From Saccoglossus kowalevskii (taxonomy: Eukaryota; Hemichordata; Enteropneusta; Harrimaniidae), in contig NW_003135370.1 of assembly GCF_000003605.2 (NCBI RefSeq), positions 176,965-240,964 of the forward strand: DNA of 64,000 nucleotides, written 5' to 3'. The notes beneath the pieces are model-generated. The model searched no databases, was not told the DNA's origin, and saw nothing but the letters and a program-made list of their open reading frames with translations. Every line of letters begins with the position of its first letter. Within the stretch, counting starts at the first letter, position 1. The translations under genes were made by a program, and so were the position numbers. Positions 25,901 to 64,000 of the stretch are shown one piece after another.

Positions 25901-26952
25901 ATTTGGCCCAATTGCCAATAGCAAAATTGAAAATGGGCTGACATTTTGGGAATTTGACAAATGTGTTTATGAAATATGTATTTGACGGAGGATTGACGAT
26001 AATACTGTGCAAGGTGTAAAAAGATATTTTTGGTGCGAATATAGTAAAATTTTAGTAAAATGATTCGTTATTTGACAAACGCAGTTGCAGTCCTCATCGA
26101 ATACTGTGTACCTATCTGTGCATAGAAATACAGGAATTTTCAATTTCAAAAATAAAAAATAAATTCAAGAATCGGGCAAATAGGTTTATGAATGTATCTC
26201 ATAGTTTCACGTTATAGTTCAAAAGCGACACTTTAAGAGATAGTTTTGGCGCCAGTACCACATTTCATCGAAAATGGGAAGAAGTGGCCGTGAAAAACAA
26301 ACATCCACGCACAGCACAAAGCAAGATTAAGAGTATTTGACGTGTACATGTACCAATAGGTGAAAGTCGTCATAACGCAACACAACTATAACAGTGTTGG
26401 CAATAGTATTGTCCTCGCTTTATGGCTTTGTTAAATATGGTTGATAAATCACGCATAAACTGCCTACGAGTTGTAGTTAACGAAAACGTGTGAACTGATA
26501 GAGTATGTGCCAGATATGTACTGCCCATCTCTCGGGAAATTTATAAGTAAATTCAAATGTGAATAAAGAGTGTATGTAATTAAGCGTAAATACTTTTTTG
26601 TTTTTATTGAGATTTTACAATCAATTCATCGTAAATCATCATAAATCAATATGTTGCAACAATATATAATATTGTATAAACATAAACATTAATGTACTAT
26701 TGTCAGTTTGAATCAATTACCTAGTGTTGTGAAATATAGAAGCTATGCATAATACAACATGGAATGATACTATAGGTATTATTATATAATTCTTAGCACA
26801 ATGACGTATATCCTCTCTGAAATGCCACATCATTATAATTATTTTAGAATGACATTTCATAATTTCAGAAATGCTAGTGAATTTAAAACAAAACATATCC
26901 TATATTATTAACCACATTGCGAATAAAAACATTAAGTGTAGCACCAGTCATA

Positions 26953-27376
26953 TAGTCTAGTGGGATTTCATGGAAATGTGCATGTTAAGGGCATTCTGGG
27001 GGTAAAAGTCGGGAACCAGACTTTTTAGCATAATTCGGGTGTACTGAATCCGATAAGCCCGGTTCCCAAGCGAAATTTTAGTTTTTTGAAGGTCTAATTT
27101 GCATAAACAAAGTAGCCGCCAAATTTTCAATTTTCTGCCATATCTAGGTAACTAGGCAAGCAATCGTGACATATAAAAAGACCGTACCTATGTTTTCATG
27201 GTTCAAGGAATATGATGAAAGCATTTTTGATATAACCAACTTAACACAATACTCATAAATATGCAAATTAGCTGCCGCCATTACTGAAAATCGTTTTTCT
27301 CCTATATCTCTGTAACTAAATAAGCAAACACGTCAAATGAAGTGTCTCTACCTAGGTTTTCAGAATCAGGGAATAT
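26953..27376 (+). repeat. Left terminal inverted repeat of the 26.9-31.5 kb transposon
   Basis: About 424 bp, matching the reverse complement of 31046-31476 with scattered differences. It contains two subterminal units, each with a GCCGCC core near an ATGCAAATTAG-type motif and ending in a block like CCTAGGTTTTCAG. Confidence 0.85.
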
Positions 27377-28023
27377 TTTAAAGACATCTATAGAGCAAAT
27401 AAATGAGTAATAAGTGCCCAGGCTGAGTAAAGGAGGATTTACTAACTCAGAAGGCCAATCCTTGTATAATTCGAGTTTGAAAAGGGGATTCCCAGATGCA
27501 ATTTCTGCAAAGAGATTCACTGAATCAGGTTTCTCACCTGATGCACTATGATTACCTATGACATATTATTGACATGTTAGCTTCAGTGCCTTCCCATTAG
27601 CTTTACAGTGGTTACTCATTGGTTTTGATGATGAGTTGAATTAGCCAGATTTTCTCAAATCGATTAATACTCGAGACGTAGACAGAGGTTATCCAGTTCT
27701 ATTTTTTTTAGTAATCTGAGGGATAGTATCACTTCTCTTTTCCTATAGATTGTAGGGGTCTATTCAGACTTATAATAACGCCGACAATTGCGACTTGGCT
27801 TCAACCAGACATTAATTGGTTGTACCAGATGTCCTTCAAAAGCTGTATCAAACCAGCATAAACTCTACAACAAGTGAGCCGGTATTCACATACCCTGTTG
27901 ACAAGACCTGGTTTATGAAAGCTGTAGAGGACAGTGAATCGTAAAGCAAGCCGAAGCAATGGACATGGCTTTTTTTTCTGCGACGTCAAGATTCCAACAT
28001 AAAACCGTCTTGTCACATCAACG

Positions 28024-30942
28024 GAGCCAGAGCAAACTGCAGTAGGGTATTTGCCTATAATCCTTGCTCCAGCTAATGAGTTAGATACACTTAATACAGT
28101 TGTTAAGAGCTGCATAGCAATATCTGCACATTTCGATCAGGAGCATACAGTCCTAACAGTAGATCAAGCATTATTCTGCAACTGAAATGGTGTGTTGAGG
28201 AATACCAGGATAAACTGTGTCCTCGTCTTGGTAGACTACATACCGCAATGAACTTCCTGAAGGCAATAGGAGATCACATGGCTGGATCTGGATTAGCTGA
28301 AGTGTGGCTGGAAAGTGGTATACTAGGGGAGGGTGCCATACAGCTTGTCATGTCAGGAAAGGCATACAACAAGGCAATGGGAGCTCACAAGCTTATTGTG
28401 CAAGCTCTGTGGAGGGTTCTTTTGCCAGCATTTGTTTCATTTGCTGAAGAATTGGACAAGAGTTGTTTCGATGCTGTAGCTGCAATGGTCGCTGATGAAG
28501 ATATAAAAAAATATTCCAGAATTAATAGCAACACTAAAGTCTGAAGGGTTTCAAAAGCTTCTTGAGAATTTTGTTGAGAGTAAATCCAATGATGTGAACT
28601 TCATCTTCTGGTGGGACTACATGAACATGGTGACCATAATCTTGCAGGTTACTCCAGCACAACGGGAAGGAATCTGGGACCTCCATCTCCACTCCTTTAG
28701 TCTGATGTTACCATACTTCATGCGTTATGACCATTTGAACTACGCAAGATGGGATCTGGTGTATATAGCAGAGATGCATAAACTTCCAGAACCTGTGTTA
28801 TCGGAGTTCCAAAGGAGCAATTTCGTTGTAAAACGTTCAGCTGAAAAGTTCAATCAAGTAGATCCCGACCAAGCCATGGAATGGATAAATGGTACTGGAA
28901 AGAAAGGAGGTGGAATCATTGGTTTTACTAAAACAATATCGGCACTTTGTAGATAGACTCTTTTATACAACCTGAGGTCTCAAATCGCAGCAGAAACGCA
29001 TGTCATGTACAACCATGGTCCTGGCAGTAAACGTGTTCATAAGGAAGTTACCAAATCACGACAGAAGCGGGATAATGATGACGAGGATTCGTTGCTTTCT
29101 GTCTTCCAGGGATTTAATGTGTTTGCATCAGGTTGTCCTGACTCATTGCAAAATCTGGCAACAACGGATCTGGCAACAGAGGCTATCCAGAACTCGTTAC
29201 TTTGTGCCAAAGATCTTGGACAGGAAGAAGTGAACACATTTGTCGAGGAGAGGACGATTGTATCAGACCAAGGTGGCAAGCCGGATGTCCAAATCCATTC
29301 ACCATTACACAAGAGTTACGCAAAACGTTTTGATCGCTCTATGAAGTGGTTAAAGACTCTAAAGACAAAGTCAAGAGAACTATCCTAATGGTGGATAGAA
29401 ACATCCTTAAACGCCTTGTTATCGCCTATGAGGCAGGTCGTCCAGTTGACCTGCCATCTGTCCTTAAGCATGAGCTTCTGCCAGTCCCTGTGTCACTTGC
29501 AGAAATGAATCGAAGACTTCGTACAGGAAACAAGTCGGCATTGGCTGACAAGTTAATTGAAGGCGTTGTCTGTCCTGATGCAATTGAACTTAATGGAAGA
29601 TCATCTTGCCTTATAATTGATGGACAAGCACTGGTAGTTGCCCTGGGAAAGCCTGACAAGGCAGTGACATTTGGAGATTTTGCTGACACGTATGTAAGAA
29701 CAGTACTGAAGGCCACTTCTAGCTATGAACGGGTTGATGTTGTCTTTGACAGATACAGGGACGAAACAATCAAGGCTACCAGGTCAAGACGTACAAAAGC
29801 AGCTTGACCAATAAGACGACTTGTTGAGGGTCGTAATGTGCCTCTTTCAAACAATTGGACAAACTTTCTGTCACTCGCTGACAATAAAGCAGATCTCGCA
29901 AATTTCCTGTCTGAACAGCTGTGTGCTCAGGCGCCCGATAAGGAGGTTGTAGTTGCTGGTGGGTTTAGAGAGGAACTTGAAGTTAGATCGTCGAAGGCAA
30001 CAACAGAGTTGACAAATCTGCGAGCCAATCATGAAGAAGCAGACACTCGTTTAGTGTTACATGCTGTGCATAGCCAGTTCAATACCGTCGTTGTATCATC
30101 AATAGATACAGATGTTCTTGCTCTTTTAGTTTCACATTTTCCGCGTGCACAATGTGAACACCTGTGGATGCTATCAGGTACCACGAAGAAGCCATGATAC
30201 ATACCCATTGCAACAGTTTTCAACAACAGCTTTTTTACCCTTTCATGCATTAACTGGATGTGACACCACATCTTATATTGCAAATCACACCAACAAATCG
30301 GCATGGAAAGTCTTCAAAAAGCACCATCAACTGCTCATTAACTTGGGACTAGGGGAACTCAGAGAAGAGATTATTCGATCTTCCGAAACGTTTGTCTGCA
30401 GATTGTATGGTGTGCGGAAAACTGACTCAGTTGATACAGTAAGGCATATACTGTTTGCAAAGTCTGGTAAACCAGAGGTGATGTCAACAACAAGTGATGC
30501 TCTCCGCTTCCACTTGATGCGATTACATTACCAAACAATGGTATGGAGAAATGCTCATTGTCCGATTTCAGAGCTTCCTGCACCTGTCGACATGGGATGG
30601 AAACATGGTGATTCAGGATTGCAGCCTATTTTGATGTCATTAAGTCCGATTCCAGAAAGTTGCTTGGAAATTATTTTGTGTGCCTGTCAGAAACAATGCA
30701 AGACACGTCGTTGTAAATGTTGCAAGGCGGGGTTACCGTGCACAGCAATGTGTGCATGTCAGCAGTATAGTGATGATCAAGCAGTCTGTATGAATATGGT
30801 CTATTCTGACGAACTGTTCATTCTAAACTTTGGTCTGACCATTTCAGTGTTTCGGGGGAAAGTTGGGAAAATGTGTTTATCAAATTTCCTTACCCTGAAA
30901 ACTTGGGTAGAGACATTTCATTTGGCAGATTATCTTATTTAG
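28024..30942 (+). pseudogene. Transposon-encoded protein: XPG/FEN-like nuclease block and C-terminal CXC domain, broken
   Basis: Consecutive frame segments belong to one former protein. In order: a segment from about 28024 (YLPIILAPANELDTLN), a segment with MAGSGLAEVW and SGKAYNKAM, one with HLNYARWDLVYIAEMHKLPE, one with VVFDRYRDETIKATRSRRT, one with NHEEADTRLVLHA and SSIDTDVLALL, then FHALTGCDTTS, and a Cys-rich end (CACQKQCKTRRCKCCKAGLPC) of the Tesmin/TSO1 CXC type. Spaced acidic residues (EADT, DTD, GCDT) resemble the catalytic layout of FEN1/XPG nucleases; that reading is an inference. Breaks: frame changes near 28175, 28505, 29340 and 30232, and in-frame stops at 28954-28956 (TAG), 29805-29807 (TGA) and 30207-30209 (TGA). 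The N-terminus before 28024 is unclear. Not functional as it stands. Confidence 0.82.
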
Positions 30943-31476
30943 TTACTGAGATATTGAACAAAAACGAATTTTTAGTAATGGCGGCCACTAATTTGCATAC
31001 TTACGAGGATTATGTAATACTGATTAGATCAAAATAATTTTTTCATATTCCCTGACCCTGAAAACCTAGGTAAAGACATCCGATTTGACACGTTTACTTA
31101 CTTAGTTACCAAGATATTTGAGAAAAACTATTTTTCAGTAATGGCGGCAGCTAATTTGCATATTTATGAGGATTGTGTAATACTTATTAGATCAAAAATG
31201 TTTTCATCATATTCCCTGACCCTGAAAACATAGGTATTGACGCTTCATATGTACTATTTGCTTGCCTAGTTATGAGGATATTGAAGAAAATTTAAAAATT
31301 GGCGGCCATTTTTTTTATGCAAATTAGACCTTTAGAAACTCAAAATTTCGCCTGGAAACCGGGATTATCGGATTCAGCACACCCGAATTATGCTAAAATA
31401 TCTGGTTCCCGACTTTTACCCAAAAATGCTCCTTGACATGTTTTTAGGGGTTTCTTTCTGAATTTCCACTAGACTA
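30870..31476 (-). repeat. Right terminal inverted repeat with an extra subterminal unit
   Basis: 31046-31476 is the inverted partner of the left end. A further unit at about 30870-31045 has no equivalent on the left. CTAATTTGCATA-type motifs at about 30988 and 31152, and the matching site near 31318, give a period of about 165 bp. The last reading frame of the element runs into this repeat and stops at 30942. Confidence 0.82.
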
Positions 31477-34400
31477 ATATTTAAATATTTTTCAAATGAA
31501 CCGATGATGCGTGTTACATTTTTACGTCATAGTTGAAATACTTGCCGGTTGCATCAAATTCTAAGATATGTAATTACTTCGTGCTTTACTAACTGATAAG
31601 GCGTAGAAACTGAATCGTTTCATTATTCCCCAATGGCTTGGGTAGATGCTGTATAATTAACCCTGTCACTTTTATCATCAACAGTCATTTAGATATTTAA
31701 TTATTTTGCATTAGAAGAAAATTATTAGCAAGTGATAATTGAAAATAGTTTCCAAATTCTCCCCTGACTACTCGCCAAAGTTGCAGTCGGAAATGAATAC
31801 AGGTTCCTTACTGAAATTGACACGTGTGTGCTATGATACTTATGTATAATGGTTACAAAAAAAACGCTGTATCAATTCAATTCACACAAACAATATAACA
31901 AAAATGTCAGGAAGTAAGCTAACCATTACAAGAAGCATTTATTGATTTTTTTTAGTTTATAAAACATAATACATCGCTTTTATTATTAGCTAAAAAATAA
32001 TGCTCCAAAAGGTGATACTACTATACGCTATTTATTAATTTAATCAAGGTACTAAACACCTCGCAAACTGTCTCCATGGCTACTATTACCAACTCATATC
32101 AGCACAATGGAACTTTGCACGTAACTGCAAATATAATATCCAATATGTGTTTCAAGAATCAATCATCTATGATAGGTAACTTAATACATTCGAGGTGGCT
32201 GATGGTACTTAGCGCCACTGTGTGATTACTGAACTAACCGTGTATATATGTTTGTTTTTATTCAGAAACCAACACAAATTATAAAATTTGTATTGGACTT
32301 GGCAAAGATACATCTGACAAAACGAGATTCTGAAATATCGAGAACTAAGGGGTCAACAAAGAGATTCGCAAGTGTCCCAAGTTAGTTTCACAAATTGTTA
32401 AACAAGGTAGACATCGTTTATCTTTTCACTCGACTGTGATTATATAAAGATACAGTTTCATGAAACAGGGTTCAGTTCTTGTTTGTTGGCTCGTTTTCGA
32501 ACCTAATGAGCCTGATAAGAAATCTTCCTGATAGACTCACACTAGTTTTACAGGCATCAACACTGAGGTGACAGCCATCGGTATTTAACCGCATTTAACC
32601 TCTCCATCGCAATATTGAGGTATAATGTGTAACACATAATATAACACCCAGTCTACTATTATATGATTAGTGTTGTTTTAACGATCATTTATTGTTTGTT
32701 GCGTTAGCAATGACTAACATCAACGTTCCCAGGTCCCTTCTACTTATTTTGCTATACACGAGTACACATTAAAGGGGAAGCGATAAATACATTGCGCGTT
32801 AATAATTCAATTTTGTTGAACGTGAGCAGCGAATTGTAGTTAAATACCCCATACCATGAAGGGAATGCAATGCGCAAGTAAATACAGACAACATACAACA
32901 TTTAGATAATCAGGGCGTGGGTACCCAGGAAGTATTACCAGCATGTGAAATGCCATGCAAATAATTAATGATGTATGCCTTAGAGCTACCAATATATATA
33001 TATATATATATGCATATTTATCGACCTAATTACGTCAGTATCAAGCACACGGTTATGTAATGTACACTTAACAAAGCAGTGTGTTATCATACTCACCAAT
33101 TAATCGCACAATTAGTAGAGATTACGCAGAGTTCTGTTCTCAGTCGAACGCCGTGTTTAAAACAGCATCAATGCATATGTTAATTAATCTGAACCCAGTC
33201 ACCTTTCACCTGTACAATCAGCAAAGGTTGTGGTGGCCTTGCCTCAAAAACCGTACCATGCTGGGACATATCAATTTAACTGGCTTGATTATGACAGCAC
33301 TGTCTATTTTATATGAAAAAAACTGAATATATACTGGTCATTTATCGTTTTACAGTCTCCTATTGCGCAATTTAATTGAAGATGACTTGCATTACGTGAA
33401 AACCGGTTGACGCACAGAAATTGTTTCAACATAACTTGCATACTAGGATTTGCAGCATAATACGGTATTGTAGTACGCTAATCAAAGTGCCGATTTTTTT
33501 TTTCTGTGAGTAACGAATTCATTTCAGATATCGTTATTATTAGCAGTATTGTGCAAACTAGTGTTCGATGACATAAACATGCAGCCTTTGTTTGGCTTCT
33601 TAGACGTCTGTTTAATTGTTCTACGTCTACCAACCAGTCACAATAAGCTTACGCAAAATTCATATGTACGGCCTTTTTACACAAGGCCCAAACATTTAAG
33701 TCGTCACAGAGTAAATGGTTAACATCTATTACCATCTGACGGTTTAGCAAATTTATCATTGTTGGCCTATTAATCCATCTGTGTGTAAGGTGTGATTTGT
33801 GAAAGCACTTCGAAGTGGTCGGATTGCATTAACATCATGAAATACATATGCTCATGCTTAGGATCAATTCTTCTGCCTACGTACACACATATTTTTGCCG
33901 GATCAATTGTCATAGCTGGGTCAACTCTCTGTTGTAACAGTCAGAGCCCGCATATACCATAAAGGAGAGTACACAAATTCCACTCATACCAAGTGAGTCA
34001 AAGGCAATTGACATTTGGCTTTACTGTTTACCCAAAAGGTCACTGGCCAATATATCACCGTTTGACTGTATATGGTTTAGTGAAAATTGAAGCTTTACTA
34101 ATTTTCGTAGTTTATTTCCCTTATATAAAATACTTTTCAATACCTCGAAAAAAAGGAATGTACAATTCTATCCTGCACCTGTCACATGCACCAAATAAAC
34201 AATATCGTGTTGAAACACACCAAATGTAATCGGAGTTGTCGGATCATTTAGTTGTAGAACGATGACATATTCACCTAGTTGTATGTGGTTTGTATATTAT
34301 GCATGTAAAAACTAGATAGTTTTAAAACGTTGGCTTGAAATTATTTGGAATGCAAATATGCGAATAGTATTTATAATAATTTATACTATTTATAATTATA

Positions 34401-60113: not shown

Positions 60114-61049
60114 CTGTGGTGGACGAAAGTTGCCTGGTATTATTACTTGTACGCAATTTTATAGAGTAACAAAGAACAAAAGGCGCTTTTATAATTTATA
60201 ACAACCTGAAACTTATATTTACAGTTATGATGGTTATACAAATTGAACTTCTATTTTGTTGCATCTTAATTCGGGTAGCAATGCTCGATTGATGTAAATG
60301 TTATCAAAGCCACCAACTATAATACTCACCGTAGTTCGAACTGAATATCTTCGTTCACCCTTCATCTTTTCCTCCCTTTTTCGTCGTTTTTCAGACGCTT
60401 TTGCCTCCGTGACCAGGAAGTTGACAAGTGCAAACTCCAGCAATGCACCGAATACAAAGACTAGGCAAGTGGTCATCCACACGTCAATGGCCTGCAATAC
60501 CAAGATTTGATATAACATTGGATTACGCGGTGTCATTGCGTTATTTGCCGATATGTTTCTCATATTATCTCCGGTAGCGATTGACCGGAAACCCCCAAAT
60601 TAGAGAGAACACACTGTCAATAAAACAGCACGCATGGGGGCCATGCTCAAACATTTGAACATATTTGACTTGTGATGCGCTGTTTATTTCACAGCGTCAA
60701 TTATCTATCCGACACGAAAACGTAAAACAAAAGCCGCATACAGCCATTTTACGTTGCATGTATCTCAAGTTTTGTTTTTCAAAACTTTTGCAGCATAGTA
60801 GCGATAATGGCCTACTCACTTTGATGTACGACACCCTTGGCAACGACGCAAGAATGCCAGAACTCTGTGTCGTCATAGTAAGAACGGTGGTAATTCCAAG
60901 ACCAACACGAGCGGGCGCTGCGTCGGCGCTGATCCAGAATGACACCCAAGACAAAACCACCAGTAATATGCTAGGGATATACGTCTGAAGAATGTAAAAC
61001 GCCATCAAGCGGCGTAGTGTAAACTGTACAACCAATAGTGTGTAATTAC
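59874..61049 (-). CDS. Second glycine/GABA-A-like Cys-loop chloride channel subunit, 3' half (M1 to stop)
   Basis: Three minus-strand exons with matching phases encode the C-terminal half of an anion-channel subunit: M1-M2 (60820-61049), M3 (60330-60491) and M4 to stop (59874-60113). Pro-Ala-Arg before M2 predicts chloride conduction. Against gene 1 the M1-M2 exon has the same length (230 nt) and most residues identical, so the two are probably paralogues. Odd points: the cysteine that closes the second disulfide in glycine receptors is replaced by Leu (GNYTLL against GEFSCL in gene 1), and M2 position 19' is Leu, not Arg. The ligand-binding exons are not recognisable between 61050 and 64000 and probably lie further upstream. 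No stop or frameshift is seen in these exons, so the gene looks functional. Whether it is closer to glycine or GABA receptors cannot be decided from this half. Confidence 0.9.
60330..60491 (-). CDS. Gene 2 exon: M3 and start of intracellular loop
   Basis: 162 nt, phase 0 at both ends, acceptor TATTGCAG and donor GTGAGT. It encodes [20 protein letters not shown] (M3), ALVNF and a strongly basic/acidic charged stretch rich in Lys, Arg and Glu. It is 13 codons longer than the matching exon of gene 1. Confidence 0.95.
60820..61049 (-). CDS. Gene 2 exon: fused M1-M2
   Basis: 230 nt, phase 1 in and phase 0 out, acceptor TTTATTTCAG and donor GTGAGT. It encodes [15 protein letters not shown]1 ([20 protein letters not shown]), PAR and M2 ([16 protein letters not shown]) followed by [13 protein letters not shown]2 has G 2', T 6', L 9', T 13' and L 19'. 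Confidence 0.96.
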
Positions 61050-64000
61050 CTGAAATAAACACAATATGACAGATTAATGAAATCTAACTAAATCTCATAG
61101 CATTTCTAGCATCACTAATACTCGCATTTGATTGTATCCGATAATAAGAGTCTTAAATTGTATTCTGATATATATATTCATTTTTTAACTCAAAATACTG
61201 ATGTCCAACAGTATCCTCATTCTAGTACAATAGAACTAATGATGAGGTAGTGGGAGCAATTCTGTCTTACGAGAGTAGAATGTCAATGAATTTAAATATA
61301 TAAACTAGAATACTCCCTATCTGGGCATATTCATGAGAATCAATAACGACACAGGAATAAGAGAATTTCAGATATGCTTGCTGTTGCTCCACAATGACGT
61401 GTTTTACAATAACACGCGTGGTGGCTGTAAAAATACAACTCCCGATGAATTCAATCGCATGATGTGAAGTGAAAATGTAGGTCGGTCACGAGGTATGCAC
61501 TGTAAAGGCATACACATGACGCCAAGGGATGCTGTCGGAACTGTAGGTAAAAAAAAAAAAACGGTAGGGAGTCCGTTCAATGCAAATCTGTACAAGTCGC
61601 AAATAGCGTTGGTTGTATTTTTCCTAGAACGGAGAATGGGCTGTAGGACAATTTTATTTTGAAACGCTCGCGTCGCGAATGAGATGGATTGGAGGTTGTG
61701 ATTTGAAAAATCACTCGATGACATACGCGTATGTGAATAGATGGGTGATTTACGTTGCCTTACATGAAGTTATTAGTCATTATGCTATCTGCCAAAATAT
61801 TGTTTAATTTGTATGTTTGCAACCGTTCTATTATATCAACGCCAGATCCACTTGTCCAATTTCTTCAACAACTCGGAGCTAAAGACACACACATGACAGA
61901 TAGTATAGAAATAAGCCTTCAGTATTGAGGCACATATACGACGTCAGCATTGTGAAGCATGATTAGAATCCCCATATTTTCTTTAATTTAAAAATTCGGA
62001 ATTGAAAACCCGAGAAAAGCATCTTATGAAAAATCTCTAATTCACATGCGCATCCTTCCTGTTAATGCAATAAGCCTCTGTTAGTACTCCACGCGTGAAT
62101 AGAGTGTCGCGATTAGAACAGATCGTCGATATATGCTGTATCGTAGATTTGAGGCGTTGGGAAGTTCTTTTGTTAGAGGATTGTTCAGAGAGGATACACA
62201 GAGAAACAAATTAGTTGAAATGCAACCACATCATAATACATACAGATAATACAATTACAATCATGTCATATTGACTGGCAATCGATCAAAACATATGACG
62301 AGTCAACTTTATCGACTCACATCACAAATATAGGATGATAATGTATTCTAATGTATGCCTATTTTAAAGGTGAATCTGTGACTAATGCTTAACAATAACA
62401 TATTTGAACTTTGAATGACAGTGCGTCAATCACGTAAAAAGGACAATATTTTTTTGGGAAACGGCGTGCTAACCCATATTGCGCAATATTTATCAACACA
62501 TATGATTTTAATATTTTACCAACCATATTCATATAATCAGTACGGTTGTTATAAAAAGATTTAAAACATGGACTCGTTACTATGGTTCTGGAATTGTTAT
62601 CTTAAATAAAATATGTCTTTTAGTAGATGGATTTCTGAAATGTACTTGTAAATATTATTATTCCCCGTTGTTGAAGCAAGAAGTAACTGGATGACCTGTG
62701 TACAATGTTCATACTAGGTTATATCGTAAACATTTTACAGGTTAAACATTGCTGTGTCATAGTGTGACGGAACACAGATGTTACCCAAGACGTTTATTTG
62801 TTCACACATCGGAATCGGTGAGTTATTCACGCCTCATGGTAACTGTTGAATGTGAATGAACACAGTACGCCTGTTTCACTAATAAAGCAATGCATCCTAA
62901 TCAGATGCTTATTTACTGTATTTGCGAATAAACGCAGAGTATTTATATAGCGTATTTGTTTTATATTATCGCAGTATCACGCATATTAGGTACTGGATAA
63001 GTGTAAATAACCACGTGACGAGTTCCTCTCTGTCTGTTTTTGGTGATTACATTGAAGAAATCCTTTATTCCATTTGCTTTTCTGTTATTGTTTATACAAT
63101 GTCTTTCTAAACAGAAAACCGAACCGTGGAAAGTGGGCTTCCATGGCCTTGACTTAGTTTTCCCAAACTGCGATGGCCGTAAATGAGAGGAAACGATTAA
63201 GCCGTCATTAGATGTTTTGATAGAGTAATGCTTACACGAGAGGAATCATTTATTTTTATTTCAAATATCATGTGTACCAGGAATGACGTCATCGGGGAGT
63301 ATGCAACATATCATTGAAGACCGAATCATAATATCGTCTCTCTAATTCTACCCCTCCACTCTGACTGGTTTGACAATTGATGCTCACCTAGATTTTATTC
63401 TATCTGTTAAAAGGTTATGTATTTTCATAACAGCAAATGCAATACCATTAAAGTTAAACATAATACGTCGGCATTTTAATGCAAACATAAACATATTGCA
63501 TGGGTATACTTCAACACTTATTACTATGTAACAGATGAAATTCCAATCTAGGATTATATTACGTCTCATGATTATTTTTTTCAATATTCTTAGTGGTGCA
63601 AATCAAGTGGCAGAGTGCTCTGTCAAAGACGATATTATTATAGCGCCGGAGGTGTTGTTGCCCACTTACGATTAATGGAAAACATTGATGGTTGAATACA
63701 TGCGGTCATGATAAATCTGTTCAACTTCTGATTATTTTTTATTTTTTTATTTTATTTTATTTATTTTTGTAATCGTCTTTTTTTTTCGTATGTGATTATA
63801 TTGTTGTTGTTTTTTTTCAATTATTTTCATAATTCTAATTTTCTGTAATTGTCTGATTGCGAAAGCCAAAATATCTGAGCTACCTTCATAGGAGATCTCA
63901 TATAAACTCTCGCAAACTTCAATAACCAATCACTAACAGCCACGGTTGCAAAACATGTAATAATCACTGTAATATACAAGACCTTCTCTGATTGGTTGAC
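61050..64000. other. Intron or 5' region of gene 2, no exon recognised
   Basis: I searched the minus strand for counterparts of gene 1 exons 2-6 (Cys-loop, YGY, WNDP and GPPV motifs) and found none. The next exon should end in phase 1 with an S/N-T-G codon series before the 61049 acceptor. Confidence 0.5.

Follow-up and report, generated by a model that had tools for sequence, protein, structure and literature searches.

The nuclease of AcademX transposons is of the XPG type. AcademX belongs to the Academ superfamily as one of its lineages (Kojima 2020, as cited in PMC10045372) and, in the excerpts of PMC10045372 used here, it is linked with a nuclease and makes target site duplications (TSDs) of 3 or 4 bp; AcademH, in turn, is linked with a helicase and makes TSDs of 9 or 10 bp. 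Likewise, excerpts of PMC10294476 give a mean length of 5,565 bp for Academ elements in bivalves. In a limited collection of papers, among the matches listed, we found none joining Academ, or a transposon, with an XPG nuclease; a CSB-piggyBac fusion that came up in a loose literature search was judged unrelated.

Here we analyse an element from Saccoglossus kowalevskii, located in a stretch of 64,000 nucleotides (the window) that is part of contig C2750, together with its relatives in the host genome, which was scanned over 572 Mb and 4,830 contigs. The element is, quite probably, a decayed autonomous DNA transposon that moved by cut-and-paste and belongs to the AcademX type of the Academ superfamily, an assignment made by features in print (a nuclease and a 3–4-bp TSD) and not by alignment with Academ proteins.

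Ends, copies and target sites

The transposon is a single unit of 4,524 bp (window 26953–31476) that begins with TAGTCTAGTGG at position 26953 and closes with CCACTAGACTA at position 31476, its far end being the complement of TAGTCTAGTGG. A preliminary description of this DNA had placed modular inverted ends at these positions, and both the ends and their modular nature were borne out. Local alignment of one arm against the other over ca. 450 bp scored 260.5, whereas none of 200 shuffles exceeded 19.5. Of 421 aligned bases, 357 were identical, a level of agreement indicating that the window copy is old. The 5' terminal inverted repeat spans 26953–27385 (plus strand) and the 3' one 31040–31476 (minus strand); they include inverted pairs of 81% (26981–27202/31219–31440) and 88% identity (27200–27290/31132–31222), and the terminal 18 nt of the element match in inverted orientation at 89%. 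Modularity is due to a repeat of ca. 163 bp that is present in three direct copies at the 3' end (30868–31290, plus strand) and has inverted matches in the 5' end.

The genome contains at least 104 matches to the C-terminal piece of the encoded protein, the window's own included. The first 348 bp of the element are matched 21 times, and two of these matches are its own two ends. With at most one mismatch over 10 bases, the 5' terminus was found elsewhere in the genome beside other flanks, and it recurs with one base changed in L030 and L031, located on contigs C3704 and C1168, respectively. These two copies have their left flank in common, so they probably represent a single insertion that lies in duplicated or allelic DNA; L050, examined in search of a 3' end for the copy on C1168, did not contain element sequence. 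In all, we distinguished three families in the host genome, and the termini of all of them begin with TAGT: members of family 2 (L014 = C1351, L025 = C342, C1343, C344 and C4662) start with TAGTGCTGCAGCA or are at most one base off, and those of family 3 (C347, L016, L017 and C2302) start with TAGT(C/T)A(G/A)G. No relatives were found in the viral contigs scanned, nor in plasmids and phages, each searched with one protein piece.

Several short sequences recur within the element ends. ATTTGCAT and ATGGCGGC are repeated within the end modules (window 27097–27274 and 30977–31317), and the motif ATGGCSGC exceeds shuffled sequences in families 1 and 3, and is not present in family 2; this motif was picked post hoc, and the repeated modules partly explain its excess over shuffles. 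These sequences resemble POU and YY1 sites. We also observed a MITE-like short element of ca. 0.5 kb with ends of the family 1 type (L034 1193–1667, G000:C4339), beside which no 3-bp duplication was seen. In family 3, the end sequence recurs inverted ca. 0.7 kb inward from the 5' end (L015 1197–1912, G000:C451; L087, G000:C1266). We rejected the possibility that these stretches of C1266 and C451 were 0.7-kb short elements with family 3 ends, because the flank common to both contigs indicates that the inner "end" is part of the interior sequence and does not terminate an element.

The window copy is flanked by the triplet ATA at both sides (26950–26952 and 31477–31479), as the preliminary description had noted; its duplication rests on this one pair of triplets, because no empty site was seen. 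A 3-bp duplication was nevertheless upheld across copies, being exact in four of the seven two-ended elements, which are drawn from the three families: the window copy and C1343 (both ATA/ATA), C344 (CTT/CTT) and C347 (CAG/CAG). None of the four extends to a 4-bp repeat. Two others match at two of three bases (C1351, ATA/AAA; C342, GTA/ATA), and C4339 shows no duplication (ATA/TAA). An eighth candidate with a doubtful right end, L010, would also show none if that end is real (CAG/GAT). This count leaves out lone ends (L037, L038, L039, L040, L043, C4662, C2916, C2302, L016 and L017) as well as C451, whose left end is truncated, and C1266. The expected chance of an exact match is ca. 0.02 per element, assuming independent bases and 35% G+C. 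A permutation test with six of the seven elements (C4339 omitted) yielded P values of 0.05 for exact matches and 0.033 for matching letters, and is weak because ATA recurs; CTT and CAG supply most of the weight for the 3-bp duplication.

The size of the duplication also bears on whether this could be an AcademH or Kolobok-like element. According to excerpts of PMC10045372 and PMC9587614, both are DDE groups in which some lineages have accessory helicases or nucleases, and our element shares with AcademH the presence of an accessory enzyme and, by our assignment, the superfamily. However, neither a helicase nor a TSD of 9–10 bp, the features of AcademH, was seen in it: the exact duplications are of 3 bp, and no helicase family matched at E ≤ 1 in four pieces of the long relative L020 and one piece of L023. 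Likewise, the duplicated triplets (ATA, ATA, CTT and CAG) do not include the TTAA of Kolobok. We therefore regard an AcademH or Kolobok-like origin as extremely improbable.

Other repeats occur in the window. An inverted pair (6943–7511/20764–21729), with up to 285 nt at 85% identity, (ATAA)n tracts and a separation of 13–15 kb, is perhaps a tailed retroelement present twice in opposite orientations. There is also a tandem repeat with a spacing of 35 bp (2271–2442; four copies listed, the last just 63% alike) and a dispersed repeat pair of 73–89% identity (8541–8679/50605–50763). The open frame at 60697–61083 resembles a Cys-loop channel by its motif, which makes an animal host most likely.

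Protein layout and decay

The window copy retains a decayed protein on the plus strand, spread over seven open pieces that overlap or adjoin one another (28003–30942). Its first part (28003–28956), which is absent from the preliminary description, is a DDE-like transposase remnant in overlapping frames containing TVDQALF (D at ca. 28162), LGRLHTAMNFL, YDHLNYARW and DQAME (E at ca. 28879; positions counted by hand). It is followed by an intervening region that is matched in relatives (28957–29388), by a FEN/XPG-like nuclease and by a cysteine cluster. The same order is found in the long relative L020 (C3001), where a finger-like N-terminus precedes the DDE-like transposase, the nuclease and the cysteine cluster; a remnant of the finger-like region is present in L009, and it is lost in the window copy. 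In the transposase alignment, the D of VDQA/CDE is present in all five rows with letters and the H of G.FH in all six, and in the motif D...EQT neither residue varies (the D in 10 of 10 rows, the E in 8 of 8 rows). An extra D motif, DN.D/N..E.T.DGK, occurs in L020 and L023; L009 has a degraded version of it, and a search of the window copy did not find it. The conserved D and E residues are candidates for the catalytic three.

At the 5' end, the closest copy, L009 (G000:C3704, the same copy as L030), is 90% identical to the window element over an alignment of 853 positions; further inward, the identity is 87.5% over 2,500 positions. Both start at the same base and have different flanks, and their match ends at window position 30430, indicating that L009 does not have the 3' end. 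At 27804–27980 (plus strand), the window has 177 bp unmatched in L009, which contains 1,203 bp at this point (L009 2490–3692) that code for remnants of the finger-like region and the first transposase motif. The window copy has thus lost N-terminal coding sequence and, adding the difference with L009 to its length, the undeleted element would be about 5.5 kb. The preliminary description had considered it a full-length element, and it does have both ends, although that description overlooked the internal deletion. With this loss, and with its stops and frameshifts, the window copy is dead and cannot move by its own encoded products.

The cysteine cluster (30679–30762, plus strand) shows five invariant cysteine columns in 13 sequences, including that of the window. 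With its dense cysteines and CxC spacing, we take it to resemble the Tesmin/TSO1-type CXC domain; unlike that domain, it had no match in profile searches, and a tesmin-type CXC domain was not recovered from either Pfam or PDB. The C-terminal cluster previously noted is therefore present, without Pfam or PDB support for the tesmin-type label, and "CXC" describes here the spacing of cysteines and is not a family assignment.

A diverged FEN/XPG-like domain

The nuclease is split by a frameshift into two parts, both on the plus strand. Part 1 (29334–30197), with one internal TGA, contains LIIDG (ca. 29619), VFDRYRDETIK (ca. 29748), HEEADTR (ca. 30033–30047) and SIDTDVL (ca. 30105); part 2 (30130–30600) contains HALTGCDTTSY (D at 30262–30264) and the stretch that follows. 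All three acidic motifs of the preliminary description (EADT, DTD and GCDT) are thus present, and LIIDG and VFDRYRDETIK add to its list.

We compared the domain with known nucleases using two profiles, A1 (the first nuclease alignment) and A2 (a trimmed alignment of 10 nuclease cores). As a reference, a pattern scan for FEN1 yielded 26 contigs, 13 of them with a full-length archaeal FEN1, and the three of these controls that were tested all matched Pfam XPG_I and XPG_N. With hhalign, A2 against the 13 archaeal FEN1 sequences scored 34.06 (E = 0.0011, probability 20.6%), above column shuffles (at most 22.87, n = 60), block shuffles (at most 20.37, n = 40), two alignments run in reverse (16.81 and 17.29) and an alignment of the transposase part (19.24). 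Against a single FEN1 (L076), the E-value of A2 was 0.0084 and its probability 4.8%. A1 likewise scored 33.07 against archaeal FEN1 (probability 12.0%, 171 columns), pairing in order four motifs, which cover the acidic set and the helical GxGxK region of the FEN1/XPG superfamily: VFDRYRDETIK..R.RR, HEEAD, DTD and GCDT..GKGKKTA. A fifth FEN1 motif (LIIDG) was assigned by eye and lies outside the hhalign alignments. In hmmsearch comparisons with PDB sequences, Exonuclease 1 accounted for four of the five hits of A1 (E = 0.23–0.95) and for five of the six hits of A2 (E = 0.021–1.6), values that are not significant taken alone. The top PDB hit of both profiles, Rabaptin (E = 0.03 with A1 and 0.0032 with A2), was judged a chance coiled-coil match.

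Searches with individual sequences were less informative than these profile comparisons. None of the 10 nuclease members matched Pfam XPG_N or XPG_I at E ≤ 10, which reflects the sensitivity of the models and is not a defining trait of the domain. Among the window pieces searched, no Pfam or NCBIfam model reached its cut-off and no PDB sequence had E < 0.4. Isolated matches under the cut-off to Pfam DUF3822 (E = 0.0043 in one piece and 0.018 in a longer one) and to Orthopox_A43R (best E = 0.011) were judged to be due to chance. An AlphaFold2 model of the window nuclease from its single sequence had a pLDDT of 34.6.

The domain shares with FEN1, EXO1 and XPG the order of motifs VFD..K..RR, acidic E/D, D.D and G(C/T)D..G.GxKxA, and differs from them in being very diverged, under detection by Pfam XPG_N/XPG_I, and fused to a transposase. 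The proposed kinship of this middle domain with FEN/XPG, as advanced in the preliminary description, is well supported by profile scores above those of 100 shuffled and two reversed controls. The domain could conceivably be a relic with a FEN fold that serves for DNA binding or protein contact and has no nuclease activity; indeed, the EEAD motif is altered in L024 and L015, and RAD replaces GCD in L020. However, four aspartates of the window core (D152, D173, D175 and D226) occupy columns that, in the alignment of 10 rows, are invariant or conserved to at least 90%, and we deem a relic unlikely. The FEN/XPG-like domain would likely be catalytic.

Superfamily placement and possible mechanism

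The combination of a nuclease with a 3–4-bp duplication is in print for AcademX. The Academ candidacy put forward in the preliminary description is therefore probably right, and its suggestion of a possibly undescribed kind of element found no support, because the kind is already known. Besides these two features, the element resembles AcademX in its inverted ends and Academ in general in its undeleted length, since ca. 5.5 kb is close to the mean of 5,565 bp given for bivalves in the excerpts of PMC10294476; the window copy differs from AcademX in being internally deleted.

These same features, nuclease, 3-bp TSD and length, argue against a DDE transposon of another or unnamed superfamily that gained its FEN-like nuclease independently of AcademX. 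Such an origin would agree with a weak match of a window piece to Pfam DUF6589 (E = 0.12) and with TAGT termini, which we did not find stated for Academ in the excerpts of the literature at hand; moreover, the fit to AcademX is by features. Overall, we consider this origin unlikely. A more specific proposal, which we hold to be quite unlikely, is a separate lineage whose transposase is not of the Academ type and whose defining traits would be TAGT termini, a finger-like region, a DDE transposase, a cysteine cluster and an independently recruited FEN-like nuclease that would be obligatory in transposition.

Returning to an element of the AcademX type, a mechanism can be outlined around what is directly observed: the ends, the 3-bp duplication in several elements, the copies, the domain order, the nuclease motifs and the decay. 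The ancestral protein would have consisted of an N-terminal cysteine/histidine-rich finger-like region, a DDE-like transposase, a structure-specific nuclease resembling FEN/XPG and, at its C-terminus, a cysteine cluster. The transposase might bind the repeated modules of the ca. 430-bp ends and cut at the TAGT termini, with the ends being joined across a 3-bp stagger; the FEN-like nuclease may trim flaps or branched DNA during excision or gap repair, and the cysteine cluster and the finger-like region may both bind DNA.

Our results do not establish any new element class, and what they describe is mostly an ordinary transposon of a known kind. They do, however, assign defined termini and a 3-bp duplication, within one host genome, to proteins that were not recognised by the domain models tried, and the TAGT start shared by the three families helps repeat annotation. 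The element also offers a concrete test of whether a fused flap nuclease is required for transposition.
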